From Branchiostoma floridae (taxonomy: Eukaryota; Chordata; Leptocardii; Amphioxiformes; Branchiostomatidae), in contig NC_049983.1 of NCBI RefSeq assembly GCF_000003815.2, positions 7,580,530 through 7,644,529 of the forward strand: a stretch of DNA of 64,000 nt. The letters run 5' to 3'. Under the pieces are notes generated by a model that was not told where the DNA came from, searched no databases, and saw nothing but the letters and a program-made list of their open reading frames with translations. Both the position numbers and the translations under genes were made by a program. Positions 5,814 through 38,251 of the stretch are shown piece by piece. Position 1 is the stretch's first letter. Every line of letters starts with the position of its first letter.

Positions 5814-6143
5814 TCACCTTCTTAATGGTCCCGTCAACAATTTCCAAAAGAAGGAAATCAGGAAGGAAATCAGTTGAGGGATGATGATGATGATATAAAG
5901 CAGGAAGCCTACAGCTTTCGGTATCAGGTATTCCAATGCCTCACACACTGTCACTAGCACGCCTGCTAAGGCCTTACTGATCAACACTAGCACATTGATC
6001 AACACCGTAAACACCATCTCTATCACATATGGTAAGGCCTTGACCACCACAGGAACCAGATATGGCAATGCCTGTAGAGTGAGCCCTACCACCACCACCA
6101 TCACCACCACCATGACTAGGTTTTCTAAGATATCCCCCTCCAT
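5814..6143 (-). CDS. Small hydrophobic membrane protein, copy 2 (hypothetical)
   Basis: A 109-residue frame with ATG start (MEGD), closely similar to the frame at 2695-3015. It carries a three-to-four-codon expansion of Met/Val after the start (an ACC/CAT triplet repeat in the DNA) and one Ile codon fewer in the C-terminal Ile run. Length changes are in whole codons, which fits a conserved frame but also fits triplet slippage. Several membrane segments are likely. No signal peptide or known family is recognised. It lies within the second copy of a direct duplication. Confidence 0.4.
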   Translation of the reverse strand: MEGDILENLVMVVVMVVVVGLTLQALPYLVPVVVKALPYVIEMVFTVLINVLVLISKALAGVLVTVCEALEYLIPKAVGFLLYIIIIIPQLISFLISFFWKLLTGPLRR

Positions 6144-9227: not shown

Positions 9228-9327
9228 NNNNNNNNNNNNNNNNNNNNNNNNNNNNNNNNNNNNNNNNNNNNNNNNNNNNNNNNNNNNNNNNNNNNNNNNN
9301 NNNNNNNNNNNNNNNNNNNNNNNNNNN
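9228..9327. other. Assembly gap (100 N)
   Basis: A run of 100 unknown bases. The uniform length suggests an unsized scaffold gap, so missing exons of the gene downstream (10262-12889) could lie here. Confidence 0.95.
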
Positions 9328-16857: not shown

Positions 16858-19800
16858 TTATTGGCGAAATCCTAGTGAGAGCACTCTGTTTCTCTCATGT
16901 TCGCTGTCTATCAGACGTTTGATGCGGAACCGCATGTTTTCGATGGTCTCGCGACGTATGCCGTCCAACAGGTTCAGTTCAGGCAGGTAGAAGTGAGGCA
17001 GACGTCTGTCTCGCAGACACGACTCGATCCTGCGGAGATAAACAGTAAGATGTTGCATAGATAACATATCTCTGACGACCCTACACATCGTGGTTTCAGG
17101 AGGTTGAATGAGTACTGACATACAAATACTTAGATCAAATCAAACATGGTTTATTTGTCAGAAAAGGTGTGGCAGCCAAAGGCCCTCTTTACAAAACAAA
17201 GTATTGCACTACACCATCTCGTGTCGTAACATATTGCTACACAACGCTATACATTTAAAACGATTTAAAAGCATTCACAAATATGGCATTAAAATAATGT
17301 ATCGGCGTTAAAATTATCTTATAGGTTAAAATTCAATATCGACTAGATTACCTCATGGAATTGAAAATGCGCAGCATTGATAGGACTGGACTATTGATCC
17401 CCCTATAGATCCCCCAAGCGCTACGGTCCAATTTGCAATGTTGCACGCAGGGGGGTAGCTGAGCCCGACCGAGCCCAAACATAGCCCGGTAACCGCAGGA
17501 CATCCTACGGGGCCACGTAGGAGTCACGCCAGAAAGTGGTGAACAGCACCCCCTTTTTCAATTGGTACCTGGGCATTAATTGTGCAATGCATCAGAGTTT
17601 CTCGTGTAACATAAAAATCGTGTGTTTTGCGTCTTGTGGACTATGCTATCCTTTGAGCTATTGTCAGGGTCGCATTAAGCTTTGACACCATAAAGTTGGC
17701 AGAGGACAAACAAGACTTGCTTGCACTGCTATATGCCAAATATACAACAAAAATTCCATAGCAAAAGTTTGCAGTTTGGCTTTGTATGAAGCCAGGAACA
17801 TTAACTCTATTACGATCGAGTAATGACCAACCTCCTCAGCAGGTCCAAGAAACGATCGCCCATCTTGCTGCTCTGCCATTGGTCCTCTTCTTGACACATG
17901 CGCAGCAGGACAGTCTTCAGGTGAAAGGACGTGAACTTGTCCAGGCCTGGTTCCCTCCGGAACACGCTCTTCAGGACACGGAGGCAGTCACGACGGCACT
18001 CGTTGGCTCTGTCGATCCTGAAAAATTGATTGATTTTCAATGTACATGTACAAACTGTATATAGCTCAGTTTGCGTCGACTATGATGCTGATTCTAGCAC
18101 ATCACTGCGCAAAGGAGCCTCTACTAAAGTCAAAAGGGATTTTTGGCTGTAAAAGATCTGCCTCTACACATTGGCTAATGCAAAGTGCACAATAGGTTCG
18201 TGATGGTCGTACGGTCGTCGATCTACAAATACTTGTCTAATCTGACCTTGATATCATCCTGGTTTCGTAGACAGAGAAGGACTGTCTCCACAGCATGGCA
18301 GGATCGTACCTCAGGGACCAGTCCGGAGGTTCGTCCGCGTACGGCTTGTACGGTTTGGCGACGTAGTATGTCTGATCCAGCTGGATACACAGGACCAGGT
18401 CCACGTCTATGGACAAGCCATACCTTTCATTTATATTTACCTGTCAGAGATGGGGACAGAAGGAAGACAGTCACATCTTTGTATCCTAAAGCTATAAACT
18501 GGATTCAGAGAAACCTATTGCCAGGTAGCGCATATAAAAAGATATGCTGCTCTAATTATTCTGGGCTTTAAGCTATGGTATTTATTCAGAGTGTCTTGAT
18601 GATGCAGTTACTGTGGCAACTGCAAAAGATAACTGCAAAGCTCAGTTGTCCAATGTTTTTGGAAATGGCAAGAGAATCTAGACTCCCTTGCAGTCTTCGG
18701 AACGGGCGTTGGACCACGATTTTCAACGTTGACTATGTTCTCTTGTGCCCGGAAGGGAGTTTGCCGAGGAAAGGAGTTTGCTGTGAAAGGGGGTTTGGCG
18801 TGATAGCAAGTATATGCCCCATCCGTCAGAGCCAACGTTGAAAATCGCGGACCAACGCCCCCCCCCCAAAAAAAAAAGAATCCAAGAGAACCCAAGAAGA
18901 CCCAATGCTCCAGGCTGCACACAACGCAACAATCCATTAGATTTGTAGTAACGTTAAGATTTGTTTTGACGAAAGAAGAGGCTTGCTCACCATTACGGCT
19001 GGTCCGTGGCGGGAGACACTCAATGAAACAGGACTCCAGGTCGCGCTTGACACCTGTAAAAATTCATTCCACGTTAGAAAAATTATATGGTCGAACGTTT
19101 TCTATCTATAACACGCAGAGTAGTATGCCACATTGTTCTTGTAATGAATTTTATCAAACATATGGACACATGTGAAACATTGGAACTTGAAGTTGCTTTT
19201 TTTTCACTGGTTTGACGCACCAGAAAAAAATGGTCATACATCAATGACAATGAGCGATTGACCCACCTTGTTGACCCCTCTCTGCACAAGTCCATAGAAC
19301 CAGTCGAGCATCTTTGTCGGGTTGATGTTTTGGTATCCATCGAGACACCTAGAAAACCGGTGAGGGTGCTGCCAGGCTTGGAGCCTAGCGTAGCCGGGAG
19401 TCATCTCCTCGCCCTCGACATCTTCTGATCCGTCAATCACGACCATGATGTCAAACTCGTCTGGTTGACCAAATTTGGTGCCCTCGTACATACTGCCTGT
19501 GTACTCTATCCGGCAGCGGTTGGCCCGTTGAGGCCTGCCGGCATCTATTTGTTCCTTGACACTGTCAATTATAGCCCCAATGTATCTTCTAACCAACTCT
19601 TCGGCGCACTTTGTTTGTTCGTCATCGAGTTTCAGTTTCTTTTCATGGTACACCTTCAACTGCTCCGTGAGAGACAAGTCTTCACACCAGTCTGGGACTA
19701 CCGATCTTTTGACAGGGTTTGATGGGCTTTCGGGCAAGAAATTGCCTCCAACTCGGTAGTTGCCCCCACGAGCATAACCACAGAATTCCTGTACAGGGCG

Positions 19801-21747
19801 ATGAGGGACGGCCGATTCTCGCAATTCGTGGAACCTGTATGAGATCAATAGCCTTACCAGGGTGACGTGTGACTGTATATTTGTAATACTGTGGAATCTA
19901 AGGTTAATCAAATTTTGACCATTCAAATATGATATGTGGTCAGTTGTACGTAGTGCATGCAGATTTTCTTGGAAGTGACACCCGGCATTCATAGGAGGCA
20001 TATTCTTTTCCTTCCTTCCTTTTAACATTTCAACATACTTTTAATATTCCTTATTTAAAAACTGAGAAGATGCATGGGGGTTCGTAGTGGTCACAGTCTG
20101 CTCCGTGAGCATTGACTAGAGTCTTCGAAATAGCGAGCCAGCGGTTGTATTTTCACGTACCTTTCATCATCATCATTATCATCATCGACACTTCGCCAAT
20201 GTCGGTAGCTCATCAGCCCTCCGAGGAACAGAGCGGCACCGGCGGCAACAGCGGTCAACAATACTGCTGAACTTTCTGGCTCGTCATTTGGTCTATCTTG
20301 ATACCCATGGCGCCTGTATGGATTGAAATTCAATGTCACGGCAGTGAATAGAATTTTCATCAATCAGTGACTACTTTTGAAAGGTAAACACACGTACCTC
20401 CAAATTGTCGATGGCTATCAGGCCATCTTGTTCATGGAGTGACCTAGTTCTCGCGAGAGTTGTGAGAAATATGTCGAGATTTGCATGGATCTTCTACCCC
20501 CTCGTCCCGCCTCCTTGCGTAGTAGGGGTAAGTAGGACTTGGGCAGCACCCAGTGATCATTGCGGTTCAACTTCGCACCTTCCAACTGGATGTGAAGCAT
20601 CTTTGATTTTTCTTTGATGCCATGGCAATCTTTTGAAACAATATGTTTAGCATCATAGCTACAATATGAACAAATTGCAATCCAAATTGAAGAGCGTTTT
20701 CTACATCTTAAAACATAGTAGAAAAGACCTTTACATATCAGGCTGACCTGTAACTGTACATTTTCAAACACTGGGAAATAAAGAATTAGTTTTGACCATT
20801 TTGACCACTCAAATATGCCATCTTTCTATGGGAATAGTCGTGTGTATTGCAGATGAATGAGAATCGGCATCTATGTGTTCTTTTCCTTTTTACTTTCACA
20901 AATCATTCACATTCATACACCATTTCATCAAGTTGGTATATCTAAACTGCAGCAGAGGGGGGGGGGGGCATGCACGTCTTCGGTGCTCCCTTGGAAATCA
21001 GCCTACTAGACTGAAGGGACCACTCTATAAGATCAATAAATAAATAGTGTGACACAACGATAATTTTACGCACCTTTCCGGCACATTGTTGACACTTCTT
21101 CGATATTCGTCGTCTCTTGTCATCTGCCTTTCTGCTGGTTTGGGCAACCGAACTTCCGCCTTGTCCTTTGCATGCCTTTCTGGTTCAGCATTGGATCTAT
21201 CTTGACATCTGTCGTTCCTGTACGGATTGAGATTGAATACCAATTTTGAAAAAAAATAATAAGCTACAATTTTAACGGGCAGCAATCAAAGCAAAACGTT
21301 ACCCTTTCCTTAAAAGTGATACAAAGTCCTTAGTAATACAGTGGAAGCCAGTTAATTGTACGTTGGATAAACACACACTTCGGTCAATTGCACGGAATCC
21401 CTAAATCCCGTGGTGGTGGGGTCCCACTGGGTAACTACGCATTATCGCACACGACGGATAATTGCACGGAATTTACTGGCAAATTGGGTGTGCAATTAAG
21501 CGGCTTCTACTGTACTAAGGCGAGATTTCACAATATAAGTGCATAGGCAAATGACTGTTAAACGCAAATGACGCAAATAACCGTAGACATAGTAGCTTCT
21601 GATGTACCTTCTTTTGTGTTTATCAGCATCAGCATCGCTTCCGGTCAAGTACAAGTAAATCAGCCAGCCCGCAAACGCTGTCATCAGAAATCCTACGCAT
21701 GTGGTTACGGCAACTCGCAATATGGTTACAGCTGTCTCTATAACCAT
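16858..21747 (-). CDS. Membrane-anchored cGAS-like receptor / MAB-21 domain protein, gene B
   Basis: Eight exons, in reading order: 21747-21608, 21217-21074, 20313-20161, 19834-19267, 19053-18991, 18440-18247, 18017-17832, 17029-16858. They sum to 1620 nt, an intact 539-residue frame. Residues 9-34 form a transmembrane segment, then a run of Asp. Residues 47-95 are a charged spacer. Residues 111-129 (AVLLTAVAAGAALFLGGLM) form a second membrane segment followed by an Asp-rich stretch. The nucleotidyltransferase core follows, with GS at 259-260, E272, D274 and the third acid at D370. The MAB-21 lobe has SFHLKT near 451-456 and LPHFYLP near 493-499. All catalytic acids are kept. No cGAS-type zinc thumb is seen. 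By family analogy it would make a nucleotide second messenger on sensing a ligand. Membrane anchoring is inferred from sequence only. Confidence 0.85.
18704..18860. mobile_element. Small MITE in intron of gene B
   Basis: GGGCGTTGG...CAACGTTG at 18704-18731 is the near-perfect inverse of 18833-18860, giving a 157-bp element between the second and third nucleotidyltransferase exons. A poly-C/poly-A tract follows immediately. Confidence 0.65.
20161..20313 (-). CDS. Spacer exon of gene B containing a second membrane segment
   Basis: A phase 2-2 exon of 153 nt. It begins like the other spacer exons (RHGYQDRPNDEPE) but then carries a 19-residue Ala/Leu/Gly hydrophobic segment before SYRHW and an Asp run. 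The upstream intron end (CAATCCATACAG) matches the acceptors of the other spacer exons. This exon is unique to gene B. Confidence 0.75.
21337..21514. mobile_element. TA-flanked MITE (ends CAGTRGAAGCC...), copy 1
   Basis: TACAGTGGAAGCCAGTTAAT at the left pairs with ATTAAGCGGCTTCTACTGTA at the right, about 178 bp, bounded by TA. The short inverted ends and TA target fit a Tc1/mariner-pogo type non-autonomous element. It lies in the first coding intron of gene B. Confidence 0.75.
21608..21747 (-). CDS. First coding exon of gene B: transmembrane exon
   Basis: ATG at 21747, in a leader shared with gene C. It encodes a hydrophobic helix (ILRVAVTTCVGFLMTAFAGW region) and then a hydrophilic Asp/Lys-rich tail ending in a phase-2 donor (AG|GTACAT). 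Its equivalent in gene C is 29749-29882, which has the same position, phase and donor but a largely different protein sequence. Confidence 0.75.
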
Positions 21748-21800
21748 GATGCCGGACTACAGTCGCTCACTGAAGATGACCTGTTGGCTTCTCTAACGTC
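21748..21800 (-). promoter_or_regulatory. Conserved 5' leader of gene B
   Basis: About 50 bases upstream of the gene B ATG read, on the minus strand, AGAGAAGCCAACA...CTTCAGTGA.CGACTGTAGTCCGGCAT. The same string precedes the gene C ATG at 29700-29748. This is probably shared 5' UTR from the common ancestor. Confidence 0.6.
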
Positions 21801-22744
21801 GTGACTCTATTTTAGGGTATCCGCCAGTCATTCAATATACAGCCTCTTAACAATTGTTTCCTATACAAAAAAAGGAGAAAGCAACCGTAACTAACTCAAC
21901 TTTCTGACGTAACTGGCACACAAACATACCCTCATATGAAAGCCCGGATTTCTAGGGAAAAAATCTTGAAGTTTTAGACCCCGAACTATATGGAGGATTG
22001 GCTGGTGGATCCCATTTACTGAAAGACAGGTACTCGCGCCAATTGAACTTGTCAAGACACGTATGCATTTTACTACTAGTAGGCACTCAGATAGCAGGAT
22101 CTTGCATGGCTCATGCAAGGACATTATATAGTATGTAGTCTATTGAGCATAAATGATAAATGATAAACGCACATTTGCAAGTCCCCTCCTGTGTAGTCCT
22201 TCTCTGTGTGTGGCAGGCTATTTTTATGGTCACTGCCTGAAGGTCATCATGATTGAGACCAGCTCAATTGCTCACTAAGAGTGAGGACTAACTGACCCAA
22301 TAGGCAAAGCAGGGGGTACGAGGGCTGCTCGGGAAATTCCCTACCCCATTTAGAGCCGATTTGTGCTATTTTCTGATCGCTCATGTGTTCTTATGTTGCC
22401 AAGCTTATACGCCAACTTTTGGCATTGCCTTTGGCCATATTACAACACATGAATGATCAGAAAATATGCCCAAAGCCTGCCACAGGACACACACACACAG
22501 AGAGAAGGACTCAGCACAGGAGACTAAATATCTCTTGCAATCAAACATTTGCGATCACAATATACCCCTAATCGGCCAAAAAACAGAGAGAAACACCAAC
22601 CAACAAGAAGGCCTGTTCCAGAAGGCTACGGATCGGAAACGCCCAGAAATATACCTGTGGTGAAGTTCTATGGGCGTGACTGTGCTGTGTGCTTTCATGT
22701 GGACAAACGCTACTAGACTATTTGTTCGACAGCTACATTGAAAA
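21801..22744. other. No gene seen
   Basis: Non-coding. A fragment at 22345-22390 (the 'gatcgctcatgtgttct' motif) matches repeat sequence at 1260-1300 and 9085-9125. A short CA/GA tract lies at 22490-22505. Confidence 0.5.
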
Positions 22745-23050
22745 TCGGTTATGTAACGTTAATCAGGTCCAGGATAGTCATTGATATATATCGGAAATGC
22801 CAACATACCTTATTCTATATCCCACTCTGCACCTCTGCAATGAGTTTTGCTAAAACGTGGCGCTTCCTTGAGTAATTCAGCTTCCAAGTCCACAAGATCA
22901 CTTCCTTGACACGTTTAAACGTTAGTAAGTCACAAAGGTCAATGGCGCGCAAGGGGTCATGGGGAAGTCGTTTTTCGACTTTTACCGAACATCCGAGCAG
23001 ATGTTGGGTGGAAGACCGTATATTATGACTGACTGTCAAGATTGGCATCT
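22745..23050 (+). repeat. Dispersed repeat, forward member of an inverted pair
   Basis: It contains the 'ggcgcttcctt', 'cacaagatcacttcc' and 'gagcagatgttgg' blocks of the family at 4010-4690. A reverse copy follows at 23195-23625, so the pair can fold back over about 150 bases. Confidence 0.65.
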
Positions 23051-23194
23051 GATGAAGCCTGACAGCCGCAGTCAAAACGTTCTTCCATCCCAACGTCTGC
23101 TTGGACATTATATTTAACAAGCCCTACAAGGCAAAAGGTTGTCTATGCGATATCTGAAAGTATACTAAGTATGAATTAACTTAATCTGAAAACG

Positions 23195-23625
23195 GCTAAA
23201 CCTAGACACCGTGAAAACGTTACGCTCTTACATCCTAACATCTGCTTGAAGATTTGGTAAAAGTGGGTGGACGAGCAAACATTTCCCGTCCCCCCTTGCG
23301 AGCCATTCACCTTCGTTTAAACATACGTGTCCAGGAAGTGATCTTGTGGACTTCGAAGTTGAATTACCAAGAAAACGCCACATTTAAGCAAAATCCTGAG
23401 CAGAGACACAGCTGAAGTGTGATCTAGAACAAGGTCTGTCGATATTCATTACTGTCGGAACCTACCAATATAGCGATTTATCCCCTTTTTATTGTCCTAA
23501 ATTGTCAAGGACTTTCCAGGTGACCCATAACTGTTCAAAGTTTGAAATTGACATGTCTCCGCGACTGCGATCTGCTGTATAATCGTACGTTATAATGTAT
23601 GTCTCATGTTAGAAAAAAAAAATTC
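23195..23625 (-). repeat. Dispersed repeat, reverse member of an inverted pair
   Basis: Reverse-orientation copy closely matching 8345-8830, including the 'aacaaggtctgtcgatattc' and 'ccaggtgacccataactgtt' blocks. Confidence 0.7.
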
Positions 23626-25134
23626 CCTTTCTTGCATTCCAGCATTTTACGTGTCCCTTTGCCTTGGTGTTTTTCATATATTTGTAGATCAAATAGTAAG
23701 GTTGCTACACATGGAAGCAAACGACACGCCCAGAGTCAACACGGGAACATTCTAAAAGGTTGATATCACAGTTGGAACTCTCCATATAGCTAAATAGGAA
23801 AGCATTGTTGAAATACACTGAAACATCTTAGACTTCAGAAAAGTACTTACCCAATTTCAATCTTGAAAATTTATCTCACCAGACAGTAACAAGGGTCGTC
23901 TTTATAACCATTTAAAGAAAACAGGTGTTGACCAGCGCAGACCCCGAGGAATGCTTGCTCTATGACGACAGAAACCTCACCGCATGGTCTTTTTAGCGAA
24001 TGCCCACAAACGCCCACTCTAGAGAAGTCCGCGCTGCACGAATCTCATTTTTTTTGCTTGGAATATGTCCAAGTTGTGCTCCCATGTATTAATCCTGAGT
24101 TTCAAGTCAATCTATTGACCCGAAGTGACATAAATCAAAGTTTTCGATTCTCGATGGTCTTTTTAGCGAACGCCCAGCAAAATGTCTTTTTAGCGAATGC
24201 CCACTATATCCACAAAAATATCGGCCGTCGCGCAACGACACCTAAACCTACCGCCACAAACATGTTCAAGATGGTGTCCCATTGATGTGTACGGAGTTTC
24301 CGTGCTTTACAAGCATTTTAAGTCCCTGTTTTTGGTCAAAATGTACGGCGACGATACTACCATACTTTAACTATAGCAATTCAAAATGGCGGGCACTAGT
24401 CATGTGACCTCTTTGCGGGACTGTTCTATAAGTATCGCGGGAGGGATTGTTGTAGCATAGCTTCTCATACAACCATTTTAGAGTGAATTCTGAACAAGAT
24501 TTTCATTTCATAGTGCTATCATCTGACTGATATTTACATTGTGGTCATTTTTTCTGTGCTATTATTACCCAGGTTTGAGGAACTTAGTGCAAATTTGGAT
24601 ATTGATTCACCTCAGTGCCCAATTAATGTACAAAAGGCTCAGACACATTAGTGTTATAAACCTGAATAGGGGCAGGTAACCAATACTAGAAAAACATAGC
24701 TATTTATTATTAACAATACTATTTACATTATGATAATAACTCTTCACCAAACTGGACTTTTCTTATCTTTATTTATCACAGAAACATTGTTACAATGAGG
24801 ATTTGATTAGATGAGTATCTTTTACAGTGTGTACAAACTTATTTCAAATACAAAAATGTATTTCGTTTCACTTCCTAAATATTTTTAAAGTATTGGAAGA
24901 AGTTGACACATAAACAATATTAATTGCATTATTTATGTGCAGTAAAATGTGACCACATGTTATCAATAGCCTAATAAAATGTTGGAACATGGCACAAGCG
25001 GGCTCCCCTTCTGAGTACAGAAAGGAAATGTTTTATAACATTTAGTTATGACGTAGAAAATTCCAATTGTAAAATGTACCTTTATTAACATTTACAAACA
25101 AATTGTTTTTTTAAACTCTTAATAAATGACAACA

Positions 25135-25900
25135 ATACAGGTAAGTAAGGTGTGTTTCCTTTTATAACAGGCCAGGTAAGACACCGTACAGGTAAGTAAG
25201 GTGTGATTCCTTTTATAGCAGACCAGGTAAGACACCGTACAGGTGAGTAAGGTGTGTTTTCTTGACTACAGACTAGGTAAGACACCTTACAGGTGAGCAA
25301 CGTGTATTTCCTTTCATTACAGACCAGGTAAGACACCGTACAGGTGAGTAACGTGTATTTCCTTTGATTACAGACCAGGTAAGACACCGTACAGGTGAGT
25401 AAGGTGTGTTTCCTTGACTACAGGCCAGGTAAGACACCATACAGGTAAGTAAGGTGTGTTTCCTTTAATAACAGACCAGGTAAGACACCGTACAGGTGAG
25501 TAACGTGTATTTCCTTTGATTACAGACCAGGTAAGACACCATACAGGTGAGTAACGTGTATTTCCTTTGTTCACAGACCAGGTAAGACACCGTACAGGTG
25601 AGTAAGGTGTGTTTCCTTTGATTACAGACCAGGTAAGACACCGCACAGGTGAGAAAAGTGTATTTCCTTTGTTTACAGACCAGGTAAGACAACATACAGT
25701 TGAGTAACGTGTATTTCCTTTGATAACACGCCAGGTAAGACACCATACAGGTAAGTAAGGTACGTTTCCTTTTATAACAGACCAGGTAAGACACCGTACA
25801 GGTGAGTAACGTGTATTTCCTTTGATTACAGACCAGGTAAGACACCGCACAGATGAGTAAGGTGTCTTTCCTTTGCCTATAGACCAGATAGGGCATTATA
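25135..25900 (+). repeat. 51-bp minisatellite, left arm (about 14-15 units)
   Basis: On the + strand each unit reads CAGGTAAGACACC, then GTACAGGTGAGT (or GTAAGT), then a GTGT..TTTCCTTT tract ending in ACAGACC. Each unit therefore holds two consensus splice-donor-like strings and one acceptor-like string. The 51-bp period keeps long open frames in two registers on the minus strand. These are considered repeat artefacts. Confidence 0.95.
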
Positions 25901-26285
25901 CAGGTAAGTAAGTTGCTTTACTCACCTGTTTAATACCTATCTGGTCTATAGGCAAAGGAAAGACGCTTTACTCACCTGTATAATACCCTGTCTGGTCTAT
26001 AGGCAAAGTAAAGACGCCTTACTCACCTGTATAATGGCCTATCTTGTCTATAGGCAAAGGAAAGACACCCTATTCACCTGTATAATGGCCTATCTGGTAT
26101 ATAGGCAAGGGAAAGACACCTTACTTACCTGTATAATGCCCCATCTGGTATATAGGCGAAGGAAAGACACCTAACTTACCTGTATAATACCCTATCTGGT
26201 CTACAGGAAAAGGAAAGACGCCTTACTCACCTGTGTAATACCCTATCTGGTCTATAGACAAAAGAAACACACCTTACTCACCTGT
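25901..26285 (-). repeat. 51-bp minisatellite, divergent central block
   Basis: About seven units of a variant (CTATCTGGTCTATAGGCAAA core) in the opposite orientation to the left arm. They form the spacer of the foldback element. Confidence 0.9.
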
Positions 26286-27305
26286 GCGGTGTCTTACCTG
26301 GTCTGTAATGAAAGGAAATACACGTTACTCACATGTACGGTGTCTTACCTGGTCTGTACTGAAAGGAAATACACGTTACTTACCTGTACGGTGTCTTACC
26401 TAGTCTGTTATAAAAGGAAACATACCTTACTCACCTGTACGGTGTCTTACCTGGTCTGTAATGAAAGGAAATACACGTTACTCACCTGTACGGTGTCTTA
26501 CCTGGCCTGTGAACAAAGGAAATACACGTTACTTACCTGTACGTGTCTTACCTGGTCTGTTATAAAAGGAAACACACCTTACTCACCTGTACGGTGTCTT
26601 ACCTGGTATGTAATCAAAGGAAATACACGTTACTCACCTGTACGGTGTCTTACCTGGTCTGTTATAAAAGGAAACACACCTTACTTACCTGTATGGTGTC
26701 TTACCTGGCCTGTAGTCAATGAAACACACCTTACTCACCTGTACGGTGTCTTACCTGGTCTGTAATCAAAGGAAATACACCTTACTCACCTGTACGGTGA
26801 CTTACCTGGTCTGTTATAAAAGGAAACACACCTTACTTACCTGTACGGTGTCTTACCTGGTCTGTTATAAAAGGAAATACACCTTACTCACCTGTACGGT
26901 GTCTTACTTGGTCTGCTATAAAAGGAAACACACCTTACTTACCTGTACGGTGTCTTACCCGGCCTGTTATAAAAGGAAACACACCTTACTTACCTGTATG
27001 GTGTCTTACCTGGCCTGTAGTCAAGGAATCACACCTTACTCACCTGTACGGTGTCTTACCTGGTCTGTAATCAAAGGAAATACACCTTACTCACCTGTAC
27101 GGTGTCTTACCTGGTCTGTTATAAAAGGAAACACACCTTACTTACCTGTACGGTGTCTTACCTGGTCTGTTATAAAAGGAAGTACACCTTACTCACCTGT
27201 ACGGTGTCTTACTTGGTCTGCTATAAAAGGAAACACACCTTACTTACCTGTACGGCGTCTTACCTGGCCTGTTATAAAAGGAAACACACCTTACTTACCT
27301 GTATT
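26286..27305 (-). repeat. 51-bp minisatellite, right arm (about 20 units)
   Basis: Reverse complement of the left-arm units, with more copies. The splice-like strings are on the minus strand. One unit near 26535 has lost a base, which shifts the open frame, so there is no selection for a continuous protein. Confidence 0.95.
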
Positions 27306-28467
27306 GTTGTCATTTATTAAGAAGAGAAAAAACAATTTGTTTGTAAATGTTAATAAAGGTACATTTTACAATTGGAATTTTCTACGTCATAACTAAATGT
27401 TATAAAACATTTCCTTTCTGTACTCAGAAGAGGAGCCCGCTTGTGCCATGTTCCAACATTTTATTAGGCTATTGATAGCATGTGGTCACATTTTACTACA
27501 CATAAATAATGCAATTAATATTGTTTATGTGTCAACTTCTTCCAATACTTTAAAAATATTTAGGAAGTGAAACGAAATACATTTTTGTATTTGAAATAAG
27601 TTTGTACACACTGTAACAGATACTCATCTAGTCAAATCCTCATTGTAACAATGTTTCTGTGATAAATAAAGATAAGAAAAGTCCAGTTTGGTGAAGAGTT
27701 ATTATCATAATGTAAATAGTATTGTTAATAATAAATAGCTATGTTTTTCTAGTATTGGTTACCTGCCCCTATTCAGGTTTATAACACTAATGTGTCTGAG
27801 CCTTTTGTACATTAATTGGGCACTGAGGTGAATCAATATCCATATTTGCACTAAGTTCCTCAAACCTGGGTAATAATAGCACAGAAAAAATGACCACATT
27901 GTAAATATCAGTCAGATGATAGCACTATGAAATGAAAATCTTGTTCAGAATTCACTCTAAAATGGTTGTATGAGAAGCTATGCTACAACAGTCCCTCCCG
28001 CGATACTTATAGAACAGTCCCGCAAGGAGGTCACATGACTAGTGCCCGCCATTTTGAATTGCTATAGTTAAAGTATGGTAGTATCGTCGCCGTACATTTT
28101 GACCAAAAACAGGGACTTAAAATGCTTGTAAAGCACGGAAACTCCGTACACATCAATGGGACACCATCTTGAACATGTTTGTGGCGGTAGGTTTAGGTGT
28201 CGTTGCGCGACGGCCGATATTTTTGTGGATATAGTGGGCATTCGCTAAAAAGACATTTTGCTGGGCGTTCACTAAAAAGACCATCGAGAATCGAAACTTT
28301 GATTTATGTCACTTCGGGTCAATGGATTGACTTGAAACTCAGGATTAATACATGGGAGCACAACGTGGACATATTCCAAGCAAAAAAAATGAGATTCGTG
28401 CAGCGCGGACTTCTCTAGAGTGGGCGTTTGTGGGCATTCGCTAAAAAGACCCTCCCGAAACCTCACC

Positions 28468-29698
28468 TTTGACCACAGTTTTCACTGATACGCCCCCTCC
28501 CACCAAGTCAATGACATCTAAGGGTAAGAAAGTCGTGTGGTCCATGTCATAAGGGAGGCACATATTCGTGGTGATTCATATTAAGATTTAGAAGGTACAG
28601 AGAAGGACCCACTAACCGTCTCCTCCTCTCATTATCATCAGGAAGTGCGATTTTGGAGAGTTTTATGATCTTAGCAACGCCATGACACGTGTGCAGAGTT
28701 TTGCTTAGGAACACTGTTTGACCTTTGAACTGGGTTATACCAATGAGTTATAGGGGTTATTACTGTCTATTGCGACCAACCGCCAAATCCAATTAAAAAC
28801 AGTATATCTGGAGATGTTTTGCTGTCTATTGCAAGCACACTTGTTTGTTAGACAGTGACAAAATTGTCACCCAGAAGTAGCGCACGGCTAGATCACAAAT
28901 AGAAGAAGTTAGCCAAATAATTATTTACCATGGTATACCGTATAGGGTGATGGCTCTGTCACTCACTCACGGCCCGTAACCTCAGTGGTCGTAGGGGCTC
29001 CCCGACATCCAGTAGCAGATCCGTAGCCTATAATTAATCATCATAAATAATCATCATAAATAAGCTTAAACCACTTTGACGCTTGAAGAAATATGTAATG
29101 GATAAAAGGGAATTTTCAACCACCATATACACACTTTCATGCAGCTGTTTAATTCTGGTAGGTACTCTAGAGTAATAGATGAATGAGACCTTAAAGTCTT
29201 TGATCAAGACACTCTCCATTATGAACCTTGATTATTTGGCGAAGGTATGTGTTTCGTGAAACTCTAGTTGGTTCTAATATGGCCAATTATGATCGAAACG
29301 CCAATCCCAGTAGTTGAAGTACAAATTTGCCCTTAGAGCGATCATAAAAATTGACCAAAAAGCACTAGAAGATGCTAGCCACCCAGAAGACCTGCACAGG
29401 AGGCTAAACGATCGAAACCTCAGCACGGGGCAACCTTCCGTTTACTCTTCAAGTTCAGGCAAACGTAGCTCTTCTGGACTCGAATAGCTATTAATTAGGA
29501 GTTCAACATACACAAATGATAGGTTACACCAAGTCACGCCCATACCCGATCCCTGTCAGAGTGGTCTAAAATCACTTTTGAATATAAAAGATGAGATTGT
29601 GGTACATAGCCAGACAAGCGACCAGCATGCAAGTAAAATGGGCATTTTTTTACAAGTCCACTTGGTGTACCTTCTTTTCAGTAAAACGGAATTACGCC
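28468..29698. other. No gene seen; upstream region of gene C
   Basis: Short frames only. A fragment at 29380-29460 reverse-matches the 'aggctaaacgatcgaaa' and 'ttccgtttac' motifs seen near 1000-1200 and 3340. No clear TATA box was identified. Confidence 0.5.
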
Positions 29699-29748
29699 GT
29701 CAGAGAAGCCAACACTCCTCCTTCAGTGAACGACTGTAGTCCGGCATT
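29699..29748 (+). promoter_or_regulatory. Conserved 5' leader of gene C
   Basis: AGAGAAGCCAACA...CTTCAGTGAACGACTGTAGTCCGGCATT directly before the ATG. It matches the inverted leader of gene B base for base over most of its length. Confidence 0.6.
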
Positions 29749-29882
29749 ATGAATGAATCCGAAGAGGCCTTTGTTTTGCTAGTTGCCCTATCCATAGTCA
29801 TTGGGATACCAGTGTTTGTGGTCTGGCTGATCTACAAAGCTTGGAAGTGGCTGACAGGATACGAGAATGAAAACACTAGAAG
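29749..29882 (+). CDS. First coding exon of gene C: transmembrane exon
   Basis: It encodes MNESEEAF and then the hydrophobic run VLLVALSIVIGIPVFVVWLI, ending in an aromatic/basic border (YKAWKW) and a phase-2 donor AG|GTACAT. The acidic N-terminus and the basic border after the helix suggest the catalytic domain faces the cytosol. This is inferred from the charge rule only. Confidence 0.75.
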
Positions 29883-32800
29883 GTACATTATTACCTACTA
29901 CAGTAGAAGCCAGTTAATTGCACAACGGGTAATCACACACCTCTGTTAATTGCGCGAAATCTCAAAATCCCGTGGTGGTGCGGTCCAACTTAATAACTTC
30001 GCTTTGTTGCACCATTCGGATAATTGCACGATCGAAAAACCCTAACAAATTGGGTGTGCAATTAAGCGGCTTCTACTGTATTTATTTAACGGCGTTACGT
30101 ATGATCGCTTACATTTGCTTTTACCGGTCAATTGTCTCTGTTAACGTTACTTTGCCTTTATGAATATTAATTTTGTGTTAAGACATGTCCAAGCAATGTC
30201 TTTGTTCATAATTGTAGCTTGCTAAACAAATTGTTCTGCTTAACAAACTATTATTATGTTTGAGATATGATTATTTTGAAATCTTTGATTATTTAATGTG
30301 TACTACATTATGTTGAAAGGTTCCCCCTGTTTTTGTTTATTTAAAAAAACAATAAACAAATTAAAGAAAAAACAACAAACTTTTAAAAAAACTGAGCTAC
30401 AGTGGCAATCAATCTCAATCCGTACAGGCGTAGATCATACCATGGATATCGAGATAGACCCAACCATAAGCCAGAAAGGCATGCAAAGGAAAAGAAAAAG
30501 GACGAAGTTCGCTTGCCCGAAGCCTACGAATATCGAAGGAGTGTTAACGACAACGCCTTGCCAGAAAGGTACGTGTACTTCAAAAGACAGTACCATGGTC
30601 TCTCACTGATTCAATGATTTGACGCTTAGGATGAATCTAGACGTAAGAAGGTAAGTGTAGAATATAACTGTCAACTTTGAATTCTCGTCCATTACTTCGC
30701 ATTACGTAAAGAAGGAGAGTACGTTTTGCTTGAATTGCTAATTGATTGTACACGTACGTAGCATGCTAATATTGTCTAAAGAACGTTGCCATGGCTTTGA
30801 ATTTCAATTCGCACAGGCATCCGGGATATCGACATAGATTCAATGCTGAGCCAGAAAGGAGCACACGAGTACGGGAGGAAGTCGCCTCTCGGATCCCCGA
30901 ATGGCAGATGGAAAGGGACTACTTGAACGACTATCGAAGAAATGTCTTTCCTAAAAGGTACGTAAAAAGTCGGCCGTACTTCTCTGTTTTCAAGACTAAA
31001 GTTGACGCTTACAGAGCAATCTGCTCAGTTGCAATATAGGAAACGAAATTGTATATAATTTCGAATGAATGTGTATCAGGGTTTCCCTTGGGTAGTAATT
31101 ATTCTGTGATTGGATAAAGTGGATATCTCACTGGGCTGTGGCATCGTGGTGGTACGTTGGGGTTTGTTGACTATGGCATGCACCTTTGCGCTTTGTTTTT
31201 CCCAAGTTTCCCTTGCGCTCACAATGACGTGCAGCGCATTTGCGTTTCAGTGTAATATTAATGTAAAATTATTAAAATGCATCAAAAAGAGATTTGCAAT
31301 GATAAAAGGATGTTACCCTTCTGGTACTAAGCACAACATGTACGTAACATATGATGTGTCAATGGGGGGCATTGGCTCATACTCATAGTACTGTATGTTA
31401 ACGGCAAGGCCACTATGATGGGGGCACGCTGACAGCCTTTCGCCATTTGCGTTGTATTACCATTAAAAACACACATCACCTTTGGAGACATTTTGAGTTC
31501 CCCTACAATGTGATTAGCAGAATGAATGTCCAAATTGGATTTTGAAATGTACAGTTTCACGTTAGCCTGATATGCATTGGTGTTTCTATTAAGTTTAGGT
31601 AGGATGTACTAGTAGGTTCTGCTTAGATTTCTCTTTCATATCGCATCTTGCTAAACAAATTGTTGTGAAAAGCTATTTTAACATTGTATTTCAATCAATG
31701 CAGGCACATTAGATATCGACCAAGAGCCTATCCAGCGAGTTTTGGCACTGAATTCACCTTTGTGTGTGTCGACGATCCCCAATATCGGAGAGATGTCTTC
31801 AGCTCGCCCGCTCAGTCCAGGTATCCTGTGGTCGCGCTAGAAAGCAAATCACACCTTGTCAAAAGCTCAGTCGTCCCTGAATGGTTTGAAGCGCTGTATT
31901 TCACGGAGCAGTTGAAGATGTGCCACAGGAAACTGAAACTCGACGACGACCAAACAAAGCACGCAAAAGTGTTGGTTAGAAGATACATTGGGGCTATAGT
32001 CGACAGCGTCAATGAAGAAATCGATGCCAGCAGGCCAGAAGGGGCTAGCCGCACCCGGATAGAATACACAGGCAGCATGTACGAGGGCACCAAATTTGGT
32101 CAACCCGACGAGTTTGACATCATGGTCGTGATTGACGGCTCAGAAGATATAGAGGACGAGAAGATGACTCCCGGCTACGCCAGGCTCCGAGTCGACCAGC
32201 GCCCTTTCCTCCCTTACCGGTTTTCTAGGTGTCTTGCTGGAGACAAAAACATCAACCCGACAAAGATGCTTGACTGGTTCTATGGACTTGTGCAGAGAGG
32301 GATCAACAAGGTGGGTCCAACTCTCATTGATGAGTGAACAGGTTAAATTTTCGCAACTTGTTTCTTCAAACCTATATACTCACCACAGGTGCAAAAAGCT
32401 TAAGTCTTGACACACCTGTCTCAGGCCATTTAACGTTGTTACCAACTGCAACCGTCCTTGTGCAACTGTTTTTCTCTTGTCTTGCTATAGTGTGCTATGT
32501 TTATACCACTCGTTTGTTTTATGTGCTGTCTATTGAAATAAAGATTTGTGTGTGTGTGTGTCAAATCTATTTTTCTTTATTTTTTCAAAACATCGATATC
32601 TGCATTAGTATTAAAGACACCAACCAATATCATACGTTTCAAAGTTCGTACTTTTTTTTTTAATTTCTATACAAATTCATTACAAGAAAATAGGGCGGCA
32701 TGCTACTCTTTACATGATATTGATAGAAAACGTTCGACCATATAACTTGTCTCACATGGAATGGACGTTTGCAGATATCAACCTCGGCATTGGATCCTGT

Positions 32801-34759
32801 TCTGAAAGTCTCTCGCCACGGACCAGCCGTAATGGTTAGTAAATCTCTTTTTCCGTCAGAACTTCCGTAAGAAACATTCATGCTTCACTGCAAACCCGAT
32901 GGGTTATTGAGCTGTACTCAGTCTAAAGCATTCTGTTATATTTGTGTTCTTAAGCTTTGGGTTTTCTCTTTTCATTTTCTACCTCTGACAGGTTAATATA
33001 AAGGAAAGAAACGGCTTGTCCATAGACGTGGACCTGGTCCTGTGTATCCAGCTGGATCAGCAGACGTACTACGTCGCCAAACCGTACAAGGATTATGCTG
33101 AGGAACCTCCGGACTGGTCCCTGACGTGCGATCCTGCCATGCTGTGGAGACAGTCCTTCTCCGTCACCGAAACCAGGACGCTAGCAAGGTCAGATTTGAG
33201 GAGTATTTTAGATGCATATGTATTGGATATTGTATGGGCGAAGGAACCTTGCAACCTAACATGTCACTAGGCACTGGAGGATCTAAGTCTCCACCCTCCA
33301 AAATGTCCCTGGACTTTAGTAGTAGAGGCTACTTTGCGGCGTTTTGTTGTTAAATCAGCACCATGGACAAAACAGACTGAGCTATATTCGTGTACGTGTA
33401 CATCGAAAATCGATCAATTAACTGTTCAGGACTGATCCAAGTCTCATTTTAGCCAGGGGCCAAACCTCGATGTGAAGTGACAAATCTTTTGTAGTTTGCA
33501 GAGCAACACAACTCTAGAGCATTCTTTTAAGAAGGGTTAAGACATAAGTATAACCCAAACTGAGTTATATTGAAAATCAATGAACTTATCAAACCTTGCT
33601 CAGCATCGACGGAGCCCACGGGTGCCGTCGTGACTGCCTCCGTGTCCTGAAGAGCGTGTTCCGGAGGGAACCAGGTCTGAGCAAGTTCACGTCCTTTCAC
33701 CTGAAGACAGTCCTGCTGCGCATGTTTGAAGAAGAGGACCAATGGCAGAGCAGCAACATGGGCGATCGTTTCTTTGATCTGCTATTGAGGTTTGTCATTG
33801 CGAGTAATACAGTTTTATGTAAAGCTTAATTCTATATTTTTGTACTTTTTGTCATGTAGTCTACCTGACGTGTGTATTTTTCAAGCAACCTTAGTGCTGT
33901 TTGTCCTTTTCATGGCAAGAACGACACATGCACAAAACGCTAAACAATAATGAGCAAGATTTGCACAATACTTTTATTTTTCGTTCCTGCAAACAGATCG
34001 GTCGGGCCCCGGTCTGGAAATGTCATCCTGGCATTAGGGAGGATCCAAGTTCTTTTATACTCGGCAGTCAGGAACAGTTAACCTTTATCCGTAGGGTAAC
34101 CTATACCCATTATATATAAAATCGGGAATTTGGGGATCGTTAATTTTGCGGAAGGCAGTTTCACATTGCAAAATCTCGAAAATGTTGACATTTGAAACCC
34201 ACGTCGTTGACCTGAAATCTCTAAACACTCATTCTTTTTAAAACAACGAATCTAGGTTACCCCACGGATTGAGGTGAGCTTGCGCTACTCAATCAACCCT
34301 CTGAAACCACGGTAAATATTATGACGAGCTTCGCATAGGGTCGTTTAATATACCCCCCTCACATTAAGCGAAAATCGATCGGACGACGAGTCTGCGAGTT
34401 CTAAATTACGAGGAGGCAAGACCCTGCTGCCGACGAAGAAATGGCAGAGTTCCCCCCTTCCCGTCAGGGTCATGCCTCCTCGTAATGTAGAGCTCGCAGA
34501 CTCGTCGTCCGATCGATTTTCGCCTAATGTGAGGTTGGTATTAGACATATGTGTGCTGTTATCTGTGTAACATGTCAGTGTTAATTTCCGCAGGATCGAG
34601 GCGTGTCTGGAAGACAGACGTCTGCCTCACTTCTACCTGCCTGAACTGAACCTGTTGGACGGCATCCGTCACGTGACCATCGAGAATGTGCGCAGGCGCG
34701 TGACACAGCTGATCGACAATGAGCATGAGAGAAACAGAATACTTTACATTTGCTTGTAG
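29749..34759 (+). CDS. Membrane-anchored cGAS-like receptor / MAB-21 domain protein, gene C
   Basis: Eight exons: 29749-29882, 30428-30568, 30817-30957, 31704-32310, 32775-32834, 32992-33188, 33604-33789, 34594-34759. They sum to 1632 nt, an intact 543-residue frame. Residues 8-29 form a transmembrane helix. Two 47-codon spacer exons follow, related to each other and rich in Arg, Glu and Lys. The nucleotidyltransferase core has GS at 262-263, E275, D277 and D375, and the MAB-21 helical lobe ends with LPHFYLPELNLL and a short Cys/Leu tail. It is the closest relative of gene B. Exon 2 of the core lacks one codon and exon 3 has one extra codon relative to B, both in frame. Known relatives are cGLR sensors that make nucleotide messengers. 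Ligand and product are unknown here. Confidence 0.85.
29899..30080. mobile_element. TA-flanked MITE (ends CAGTRGAAGCC...), copy 2
   Basis: Same element as 21337-21514 (182 bp, TA borders), in the first coding intron of gene C. It has the same chromosomal orientation as the other copy although the host genes are inverted. Confidence 0.75.
30428..30957 (+). CDS. Two tandemly duplicated spacer exons of gene C
   Basis: Exons 30428-30568 and 30817-30957 are each 141 nt, phase 2-2. They share the plan R-x-GYRxR..N.EPER ... Y.RR.V.....P.R. Both are preceded by the same intronic string (TCAAT..G.ACAG) and followed by AG|GTACGT. Skipping either keeps the frame. Confidence 0.75.
34076..34300. mobile_element. 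Palindromic MITE, family 1, divergent copy
   Basis: Its ends ('taacctttatccgtagggta' and its inverse near 34265-34295) match the family at 40330-40550, 45503-45715, 49115-49310 and 52500-52730. It lies in the last intron of gene C. Confidence 0.6.
34345..34540. mobile_element. Palindromic MITE, full copy, last intron of gene C
   Basis: A perfect-looking foldback of roughly 80-base arms: CACATTAAGCGAAAATCGAT at the left and ATCGATTTTCGCCTAATGTG at the right, with the GACGACGAGTCTGCGAG and GAGGAGGCA blocks mirrored. Half-copies occur at 3925-4015 and 6870-6975. Confidence 0.8.
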
Positions 34760-36283: not shown

Positions 36284-38119
36284 TTAGATGTTTGGGAATG
36301 CAAGGTCGGTGTACGTGTTTTGCCTTTCCTGTCCAGAGGAATAGCCAGATGAGCGAGCAAACTGCCTGATGCCATCGGTTCCGTACGTTTTGGAAACTTC
36401 TGCACTGGTACCGGTTTGTTCACGGTTATATACGTCGCACTTAAGACGCGAATTTGAAGAAGGTTTTGATGTGCTGTTTGTTGTAGTCTCTTGTATGCAG
36501 GACTGACCGTCATCTAATTTTGGCGACTCATTGTCAACGCCATCTTCATCGGAAACTTCTCCTGGCTCGTATGGGCCAGATAATGCATTGGCGCCTTCAT
36601 TATTCTTAGGGCTGGTTTCACCTGCCGTCTCAGCGTCCATAAGATGATATTGAGGTACATCAAAGACATAAGGACAGCTTGCATACGGCTCAATCGTATT
36701 AGTTTTTACCACATTTACGCAAGCCTCTGTTTCTGACTTCACCACCTTACTTTCGACCTTGTCGTCATCAGTAACTTCCCCATGGTTGCCGGCATGATCA
36801 AAGGCCTGTGCTTCTGGACCAGGAAAGGTACTGGTGCCTTCTGTTTCCTCAGGATTGGTCATGTCTGCACTTTCGCCAATATGATATTGAGGCACATCAA
36901 AAACATAAGAAGACCTTGCATATGGTTCAACTGTTTCGGGTATAGTTTCGTATAAGCAGGAATCGGGGTCTGTTTCCGGACCATTGCTGCAGCCTTCCTG
37001 ATCATCAGCCTGGGCGTTCTGACTGCTTCCAGTTTGTTGAAAACAAGCGTTGTTTACAACTTGGCCAGCCGCAATGTTGTTTACGTGACCAAGCTGCGCA
37101 GTTGCGTTGTTAGATTGTTTCCTGACCAGTGCACAATAGAAAGCTAAGCCCACACCATTCAGGACAACTACCGCTCCAACTACTGATCCAGTCACCACCC
37201 AGACCCATGCCTTATTGGCAACGGTTTCGAATTCAGTAGTAACGTTTTGAGAAATCTCAAACATTTCAGCCTGCTGCGTTGTTAGTGGCAACAAGGACGG
37301 AGTACTGACGTCAGATGGATGAAGGCCCGTAGGACAGACTCTGTTAGGATCACAAGGTCTTAGGGCGGTCTTAGTCCAGCTAGAATTACATTCTGAGATC
37401 GTGAGCATGTGTAGCTCTTCGTTCTTTCGGTTATCAGGTGTTTTACAACGGAACAAAGTAGGGTTGTTGTACATGGAGGATGTAATTTGATTTTTCCTAA
37501 CAGTGTCGCACATGCCCGGTGTTTTCAAGTTACGGCACAAGTCCGCCAATACAGCGGCATCAACGGCCCATGCTAGTTTGCAGTCACAGTGGAAAGGATT
37601 ACCCGCTATGAAAGGTGCGTATGATATTTCTCGTTCATTTGGTACGTGCACGTTCCACCCAAGATCGCACATAGACAATGTCTTGATGTTATTGAAGGAA
37701 ACGTTCACTATTTCCAAGTTTGATACGAAATGCTTCACAGGATACATGTTTACACAAGACAGCTGATTATATGACAAATCCAAATGAACTAGCATGGGCA
37801 TGCTCTTCAGACAGTACCAAGGGAAGTAACTGATGTTGTTGTTTCTTAAGATTATGTTGTTCAAATAGGGTAGCGCCATACAGGGAAACGTGGTCAGTGC
37901 GTTCTTGGGAAGGTAAAGTTCAGCGAGTCTTGAGGGCAGGTCTTTGGGAATACTACGTAAGCCTTTGTTGTCACAGTTAATTTGGAGTAAAGTAGAATTC
38001 TGAACGTTACATCCTTGAGATTGCAGTTGTGAAAGTGCTGATGCTTCACAATTGTGCGGTGCGTTCAGAAATGTGAGGACCAAAGCTAGAAGGACAATCG
38101 TATTGTCATTGTATCGCAT
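36284..38119 (-). CDS. Single-exon LRR transmembrane receptor-like protein
   Basis: ATG at 38119 (MRYNDN) is chosen; the frame extends seven codons further up but only to a GTG. 611 residues. Residues 1-26 form a signal peptide. A Cys-bounded N-cap (GCNVQ...INC) follows, then three to four leucine-rich repeats (about 60-155), a C-terminal LRR cap (NPFHCDCKLAW, with partner cysteines), a Thr/Ser stem with N-glycosylation sites, and a transmembrane helix at about 305-330. The tail of about 275 residues is acidic and has two copies of EPYA..xYVFDVPQYH (398-413 and 477-492), YETI near 392 and YTDL near 603. The domain order is that of type I LRR receptors or adhesion molecules. The tyrosines may be phosphorylated SH2 docking sites (inference). 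The coding region has no introns. Confidence 0.85.
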   Translation of the reverse strand: MRYNDNTIVLLALVLTFLNAPHNCEASALSQLQSQGCNVQNSTLLQINCDNKGLRSIPKDLPSRLAELYLPKNALTTFPCMALPYLNNIILRNNNISYFPWYCLKSMPMLVHLDLSYNQLSCVNMYPVKHFVSNLEIVNVSFNNIKTLSMCDLGWNVHVPNEREISYAPFIAGNPFHCDCKLAWAVDAAVLADLCRNLKTPGMCDTVRKNQITSSMYNNPTLFRCKTPDNRKNEELHMLTISECNSSWTKTALRPCDPNRVCPTGLHPSDVSTPSLLPLTTQQAEMFEISQNVTTEFETVANKAWVWVVTGSVVGAVVVLNGVGLAFYCALVRKQSNNATAQLGHVNNIAAGQVVNNACFQQTGSSQNAQADDQEGCSNGPETDPDSCLYETIPETVEPYARSSYVFDVPQYHIGESADMTNPEETEGTSTFPGPEAQAFDHAGNHGEVTDDDKVESKVVKSETEACVNVVKTNTIEPYASCPYVFDVPQYHLMDAETAGETSPKNNEGANALSGPYEPGEVSDEDGVDNESPKLDDGQSCIQETTTNSTSKPSSNSRLKCDVYNREQTGTSAEVSKTYGTDGIRQFARSSGYSSGQERQNTYTDLAFPNI

Positions 38120-38251
38120 GTTTTCTGCAGGGACTATCACTTCACACGACTTTCCTCGCTTTCCCTAGTTGTAAACATTATTTCCTGGCCCGTGAATAAT
38201 TCAATCAGTTTGGTAAAATTCTTAATCATAAAGTTATTTATGCACAACAAG

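Follow-up and report, generated by a model that had tools for sequence, protein, structure and literature searches.

The question raised by this locus is whether two divergent genes, designated B and C, encode cGAS-like receptors (cGLRs) in which a membrane anchor, supplied by a separate first exon, precedes a complete nucleotidyltransferase (NTase). The position of cGAS in the cell is a central issue in how foreign nucleic acid is told from own. The window is the whole stretch of 64,000 nucleotides that was analysed; relatives were searched for in the assembly of 513 Mb, comprising 431 contigs.

Gene models

Scripted re-splicing gave eight exons for gene B (minus strand, 16858-21747) and eight for gene C (plus strand, 29749-34759), encoding 539 and 543 residues. 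Both the lengths and the coordinates agree exactly with the intact frames described in an earlier note on this DNA, and 16858-34759 is the exact span bounded by the two stop codons. In the two genes all 14 introns are GT-AG, the phases agree and the frames are open through to the stop. The two first exons, separated by 8 kb, are directed away from one another, in accordance with the head-to-head order previously proposed. The exons, with the evidence for each, are as follows.

21608-21747, minus strand: gene B exon 1, start codon and hydrophobic helix (splice sites; hydropathy 1.91; common 5' leader)
21074-21217, minus strand: gene B exon 2, charged linker, 144 nt, symmetrical phase (splice sites; resembles C exon 2)
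20161-20313, minus strand: gene B exon 3, linker with a second hydrophobic segment, 153 nt, skippable in frame (splice sites; hydropathy)
19267-19834, minus strand: gene B exon 4, NTase core with GS and EFD (splice sites; Pfam; motif)
18991-19053, minus strand: gene B exon 5 (splice sites)
18247-18440, minus strand: gene B exon 6, third acidic residue (IDVDL) (splice sites; motif)
17832-18017, minus strand: gene B exon 7, Mab-21_C (splice sites; Pfam)
16858-17029, minus strand: gene B exon 8, end of Mab-21_C and stop (splice sites)
29749-29882, plus strand: gene C exon 1, start codon and hydrophobic helix (splice sites; hydropathy 2.97; common leader)
30428-30568, plus strand: gene C exon 2, basic linker, 141 nt (splice sites)
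30817-30957, plus strand: gene C exon 3, basic linker, 141 nt (splice sites)
31704-32310, plus strand: gene C exon 4, NTase core with GS and EFD (splice sites; Pfam; motif)
32775-32834, plus strand: gene C exon 5 (splice sites)
32992-33188, plus strand: gene C exon 6, third acidic residue (splice sites; motif)
33604-33789, plus strand: gene C exon 7, Mab-21_C (splice sites; Pfam)
34594-34759, plus strand: gene C exon 8, end of Mab-21_C and stop (splice sites)

The dN/dS of the core is 0.52 between B and C (dS 0.23), and 0.56 and 0.79 when B and C, respectively, are compared with paralogue A of the same window. The possibility that B and C are pseudogenes was rejected on account of the open frames and the core dN/dS of 0.52. 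The two are almost certainly real genes of the cGLR family.

Nucleotidyltransferase core and active site

Both Pfam domains score above the cut-off in both proteins: Mab-21 (PF03281) with 68.3 bits in C (1.3e-18) and 66.9 bits in B (3.2e-18), and Mab-21_C (PF20266) with 74.3 bits in C (9.4e-21) and 81.7 bits in B (4.8e-23). A search of the PDB with C as the only query gave 51 distinct sequences at E <= 1. The top match is cGAS-like receptor 1 (8gjy), with 97.8 bits (E 5.2e-27) over both domains, followed by MAB21L1 (67.0 bits), cGAS (62.9 bits) and MID51 (61.1 bits). At the sequence level the core therefore aligns with cGAS and MAB-21, in Pfam for both proteins and in the PDB for C. Structure prediction of C exon 4 alone (202 residues, three rows) gave a pLDDT of 41, too low to serve for a fold comparison.

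The catalytic pattern of B and C is YTGS-X11-EFDI followed later by IDVDL, so that GS and three acidic residues are kept in both. Together with the two Pfam domains this upholds the description of the core as a complete MAB-21/cGAS-like nucleotidyltransferase. The published cGLR motif, as printed in PMC9980059, is h[QT]GS-X8-20-[DE]h[DE]h-X50-90-h[DE]h. The spacing from EFDI is 93 (B) and 95 (C) residues to VDL and 91 and 93 residues to IDV, slightly above the printed 50-90. The motif was accepted all the same because pig cGAS (91 residues by the same count) and 8gjy (102 residues), between which B and C fall, also exceed this range. On balance B and C probably make a cyclic nucleotide. Orthology of B and C to MID51 was rejected, since C scores higher against cGLR1 than against MID51 whereas another gene of this genome, on C18, matches MID51 best.

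The paralogue cluster

Seven Mab-21 core loci lie on contig C5 between about 7,516,500 and 7,615,300 (approximately 100 kb), namely Z (plus strand), X1, X2 and X3 (minus), A (plus), B (minus) and C (plus). An additional piece similar to exons 7/8 is found at about 7,432,700 to 7,433,800, and an exon-8-like piece at about 7,545,300. The TGS, the EFD and the third acid are readable in all seven loci. B and C are the only ones with a first exon plus a complete core. Z has an N stretch within exon 6, and its exon 8 was not found in the 4 kb downstream, where an N run is located. The core exon of X2 has an apparent interruption of some 470 bases. In X3 an in-frame TGA occurs early in the core exon, and the exon 7 match is partial and adjoins an N run. 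A first exon was looked for at paralogue A and not found; a 100-N gap is present at 9228-9327.

10285-12889, plus strand: paralogue A, five core exons (10285-10711, 11241-11303, 11553-11746, 12152-12337 and 12712-12889)

A tree of the seven cluster cores and four outsiders, with long branches flagged among the outsiders, grouped the cluster (90/98) and, within it, Z with X1 (90/99), and did not resolve the other relations. No branch attained the star threshold of the tool.

The first exon

The earlier note held that both frames begin with a hydrophobic helix, and this is borne out by the Kyte-Doolittle hydropathy in a 19-residue window, 1.91 in B and 2.97 in C. At four of the seven cluster loci (Z, X2, B and C) the first exon combines an ATG and a phase-2 donor with a hydrophobic helix; X1 has a homologous first exon in which the helix is absent. 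The leader GAGAA.CC...GACTGT...ATG is invariant in all five first exons that were aligned (C, B, X2, X1 and one at 6.1 kb). At the DNA level, the leader and first exon of C matched X2 (79%), B (81%, mostly in the leader) and a small contig, C57 (78%). The one at 6.1 kb is an open reading frame with the appearance of a first exon.

5818-6143, minus strand: first-exon-like ORF of 109 residues with three hydrophobic segments and the common leader (hydropathy; leader alignment; donor-side end placed by eye)

A scan of the 154-kb cluster for exons combining an ATG, a helix of at least 1.9 and a phase-2 donor returned 10 rows, where 20 first-order Markov resamples averaged 0.75; on this basis the idea that the helix exons are chance ORFs was rejected. 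Of these 10, two rows represent a single Z exon, two correspond to paired copies (near 6.0 and 2.9 kb), two are unrelated and one is B exon 3, entered from an ATG in the intron. The helix is probably ancestral in the cluster, because Z and X1 form one branch while X2, B and C fall outside it. Exon 1 is likely to be part of the main transcripts of B and C.

Purifying selection on the sequence of exon 1 was looked for in pairwise dN/dS and not found. Between B and C, dN (0.65) exceeds dS (0.42); three other pairs gave a dN/dS of 0.84, 0.96 and 0.58, and two further pairs were saturated. Under simulated neutral change the helix stayed at or above 1.9 in 22-72% of runs at 20% divergence, 15-50% at 30%, 7-23% at 40% and 7-17% at 45%. 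The four real helix exons pass this drift test but were chosen with the same cut-off, and X1 fails; the support that the test gives to retention of the helix is therefore weak.

Membrane topology and linkers

Over 15 residues on each side of the helix, the net charge (preceding/following flank) comes to -2/+1 for C, +1/+3 for Z, +1/-1 for B and +2/0 for X2. A cytosolic core is thus favoured by the flanking charges for C and Z, while those of B and X2 point neither way. Overall the core is likely to face the cytosol. Past the helix, C has a basic stretch of 102 residues (29 K+R vs 17 D+E); a stretch of 65 residues in B is not basic (16 K+R vs 15 D+E).

Exon 3 of B encodes a second hydrophobic segment (residues 111-129, hydropathy 2.16) that was absent from the earlier note, and the picture of a single helix may be wrong for B. 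If both segments span the membrane, the core would lie on the same side as the N-terminus. As exon 3 is 153 nt long and phase-symmetrical, skipping it would restore a single span.

Comparison with known proteins

B and C resemble cGLR1 (8gjy), the best match of C, and cGAS in having both Mab-21 domains and GS with three acids at similar spacing. They differ from these in adding an N-terminal hydrophobic helix and linker exons, and in the zinc ribbon of vertebrate-type cGAS, the pattern of which (H-X5-CC-X6-C) had no match in B or C in a pattern search. The order of short N-terminus, helix, linker and cytosolic NTase fold is also that of MiD49 and MiD51, which are anchored by their N-terminal helix and are, to our knowledge, catalytically inactive; C matches MID51 less well than cGLR1 (61.1 vs 97.8 bits). 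We likewise know of no catalysis by ITPRIP, ITPRIPL1 and ITPRIPL2, the D1 group of DANGER proteins. These have, according to PMC1784063, a membrane segment before the Mab-21 domain with an intron between, as in B and C. They are set beside B and C by this description, and none is among the PDB matches of C.

The earlier note had also stated that most described cGLRs are soluble. This is supported indirectly by Li and colleagues, in whose set of 3,020 cGLRs 87% have no added signalling domain, membrane helices not being counted; the added domains named there are TPR and ankyrin (PMC9980059). In that text 'membrane' does not occur at the start of a word, and 'transmembrane' occurs twice, both times about STING. 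The statement is overstated for the superfamily, in which membrane segments are known: the 2007 DANGER paper predicts membrane segments or signal peptides for several Mab-21 families, describes introns behind these, and puts forward exon shuffling in early vertebrate evolution (PMC1784063), and Itprip is located to the outer nuclear membrane (PMC6550788). A helix exon on non-vertebrate cGLR genes would be a parallel or earlier case. For Branchiostoma floridae, a review table gives two cGAS homologues (PMC10855445). No description of a membrane-anchored cGLR in lancelets was found among the listings and passages of open-licence papers that were searched. The parts are known, but the combination of membrane anchor and complete active site in one enzyme seems to be new.

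Alternative readings

B and C could be membrane-anchored adaptors without catalysis, in which the NTase fold binds a nucleotide or kinase and works through protein contact at a membrane; ITPRIP, MiD49/51 and the shrimp Mab21 proteins would be the models. The membrane segments and the exon-shuffling hypothesis on record for the superfamily (PMC1784063) agree with this, as does the placement of Itprip in the outer nuclear membrane (PMC6550788). Shrimp Mab21-1/2/3 are, like B and C, cGAS-related and belong to invertebrate antiviral defence; they are reported to bind neither dsDNA nor dsRNA, to synthesise no cGAMP and to activate IKKepsilon (PMC12928593). The same genome also holds a comparable protein, as the C18 gene encodes a helix and a Mab-21 fold in a single ORF of 378 residues with MID51 as best match (1.4e-15). 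That protein has, by eye, IRLLPAL at the position of the third acid, which is missing, whereas the catalytic positions are kept in B, in C and throughout the cluster, and the nearest solved match of C is a cGLR and not MID51. An adaptor role is rather unlikely.

The functional protein might instead be soluble, should its main transcripts arise from an alternative promoter or begin within a linker exon, with little or no use of the helix exon. The loss of the helix in X1, the in-frame Met codons in the phase-symmetrical linker exons, a Met 51 residues ahead of GS in the core exon of C and the want of visible purifying selection on exon 1 all fit such a start. The ATG, donor phase and leader common to the paralogues speak against it, and a transcript starting in the core exon of B could not make an enzyme because its first Met directly follows GS. 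We consider a soluble product decidedly unlikely. Cleavage of the helix as a signal peptide, with entry into the ER lumen or secretion, is highly improbable. The 19-residue helix core does begin early (residue 7 in C, 9 in Z and X2, 12 in B) and is preceded by a charge of +1 to +2 in B, Z and X2. In C, however, this charge is -2, the hydrophobic stretches are over-long, those of signal peptides being shorter, and the cytosol would be the expected place of an NTP-using enzyme.

Proposed mechanism

The preferred reading is that B and C, two members of a tandem cluster, are cytosol-facing, membrane-anchored nucleotide-signal synthases, probably feeding STING; we infer both localisation and catalysis, and chances that the whole is right or wrong appear evenly balanced. 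Counting against it are the restriction of a first exon with a complete core to B and C, the gaps in Z and X2, the second hydrophobic segment of B and the excess of dN over dS in exon 1. The proposal of membrane-tethered sensors in the earlier note is partly supported, by cores of cGLR type with a complete catalytic motif and by a helix exon that recurs at paralogous loci; the single helix may fail for B. In both genes the first exon would supply the membrane anchor of a Mab-21/cGAS-type nucleotidyltransferase with a complete set of catalytic residues. The helix would insert into an internal membrane and the linker would keep the enzyme at its cytosolic side, where ligand binding would turn on cyclic nucleotide synthesis, to be read by STING on a nearby membrane. 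The position of the sensor would be set by exon 1. The symmetrical linker exons would permit skipping variants, in B with the second hydrophobic segment in or out, and the helix-less X1 would represent a naturally occurring soluble protein.

If this is true, a catalytically complete cGLR would have an architecture otherwise known from the ITPRIP and MiD branches. The cluster would then be a natural experiment, with a near-identical catalytic core with or without a membrane tether and the anchor as a separate exon that is present, deleted or lengthened between close paralogues. More tentatively, and with a rather low likelihood, the lineage may have diversified the location of cGAS-like sensors and not only their ligands. 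Interchangeable first exons (one helix, a deleted helix, the three-segment exon and an optional second segment by skipping), together with a tail-anchor-like helix on a cGAS-like gene elsewhere, would then give compartment-specific nucleotide alarms feeding a single STING locus.

Other relatives in the genome

STING gave two exon matches, at one locus in the genome, and PF20266 at least 17 exon matches genome-wide. Two genes, on C7 and C11, have the motif NSGSYFE and, by eye, long basic N-termini; they are named putatively as cGAS-like from this motif. The C11 gene is without a hydrophobic tail, and in the C7 gene such a tail ends the same ORF as Mab-21_C.

Palindrome between genes B and C

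The interval between the two cGAS-like receptor genes B and C contains a large palindrome.

24142-28296, between B and C: large palindrome

The arms (24142-25111 and 27327-28296 of the window) are 970 nt each with 99% complementarity and enclose an inverted minisatellite with a 51-bp unit at 25136-27304. The head-to-head order of B and C may result from an inverted duplication, of which the palindrome is a possible trace.

Other sequences in and around the cluster and on contig C57

2600-3000 and 5818-6143 (-): pair of long hydrophobic ORFs
350-200 (-): degenerate cluster-type first-exon copy
G000:C57:318-411: match to the gene C leader and first-exon start
L014, about -13280 to -13760 relative to the window: apparent interruption of the X2 core exon
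36284-38164 (-): leucine-rich repeat ORF

The two hydrophobic ORFs are highly similar to each other. Three hydrophobic segments are present in the 6.1-kb ORF, which also carries the 5' leader of the cluster. The degenerate copy resembles B, by eye, in the leader and on the donor side. The match on the small contig C57 has 78% identity. The core exon of the paralogue X2 is apparently split between the VVPEWF and LTEQLKR parts by ~470 bases, perhaps a mobile-element insert. The leucine-rich repeat frame is unbroken over 626 codons (LRR_8 5.1e-8); inspection by eye also shows a hydrophobic segment in it, as well as a long tail.

Mab-21 relatives elsewhere in the genome

L019:4040-4780 (-): C-terminal ORF of the C7 cGAS-like gene
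L021:3746-4882 (+): single-ORF Mab-21-fold protein

The former ORF is closed by a hydrophobic, tail-anchor-like helix, which is absent from the C11 paralogue. The latter encodes an N-terminal helix together with the Mab-21 fold, and its best match is MID51.
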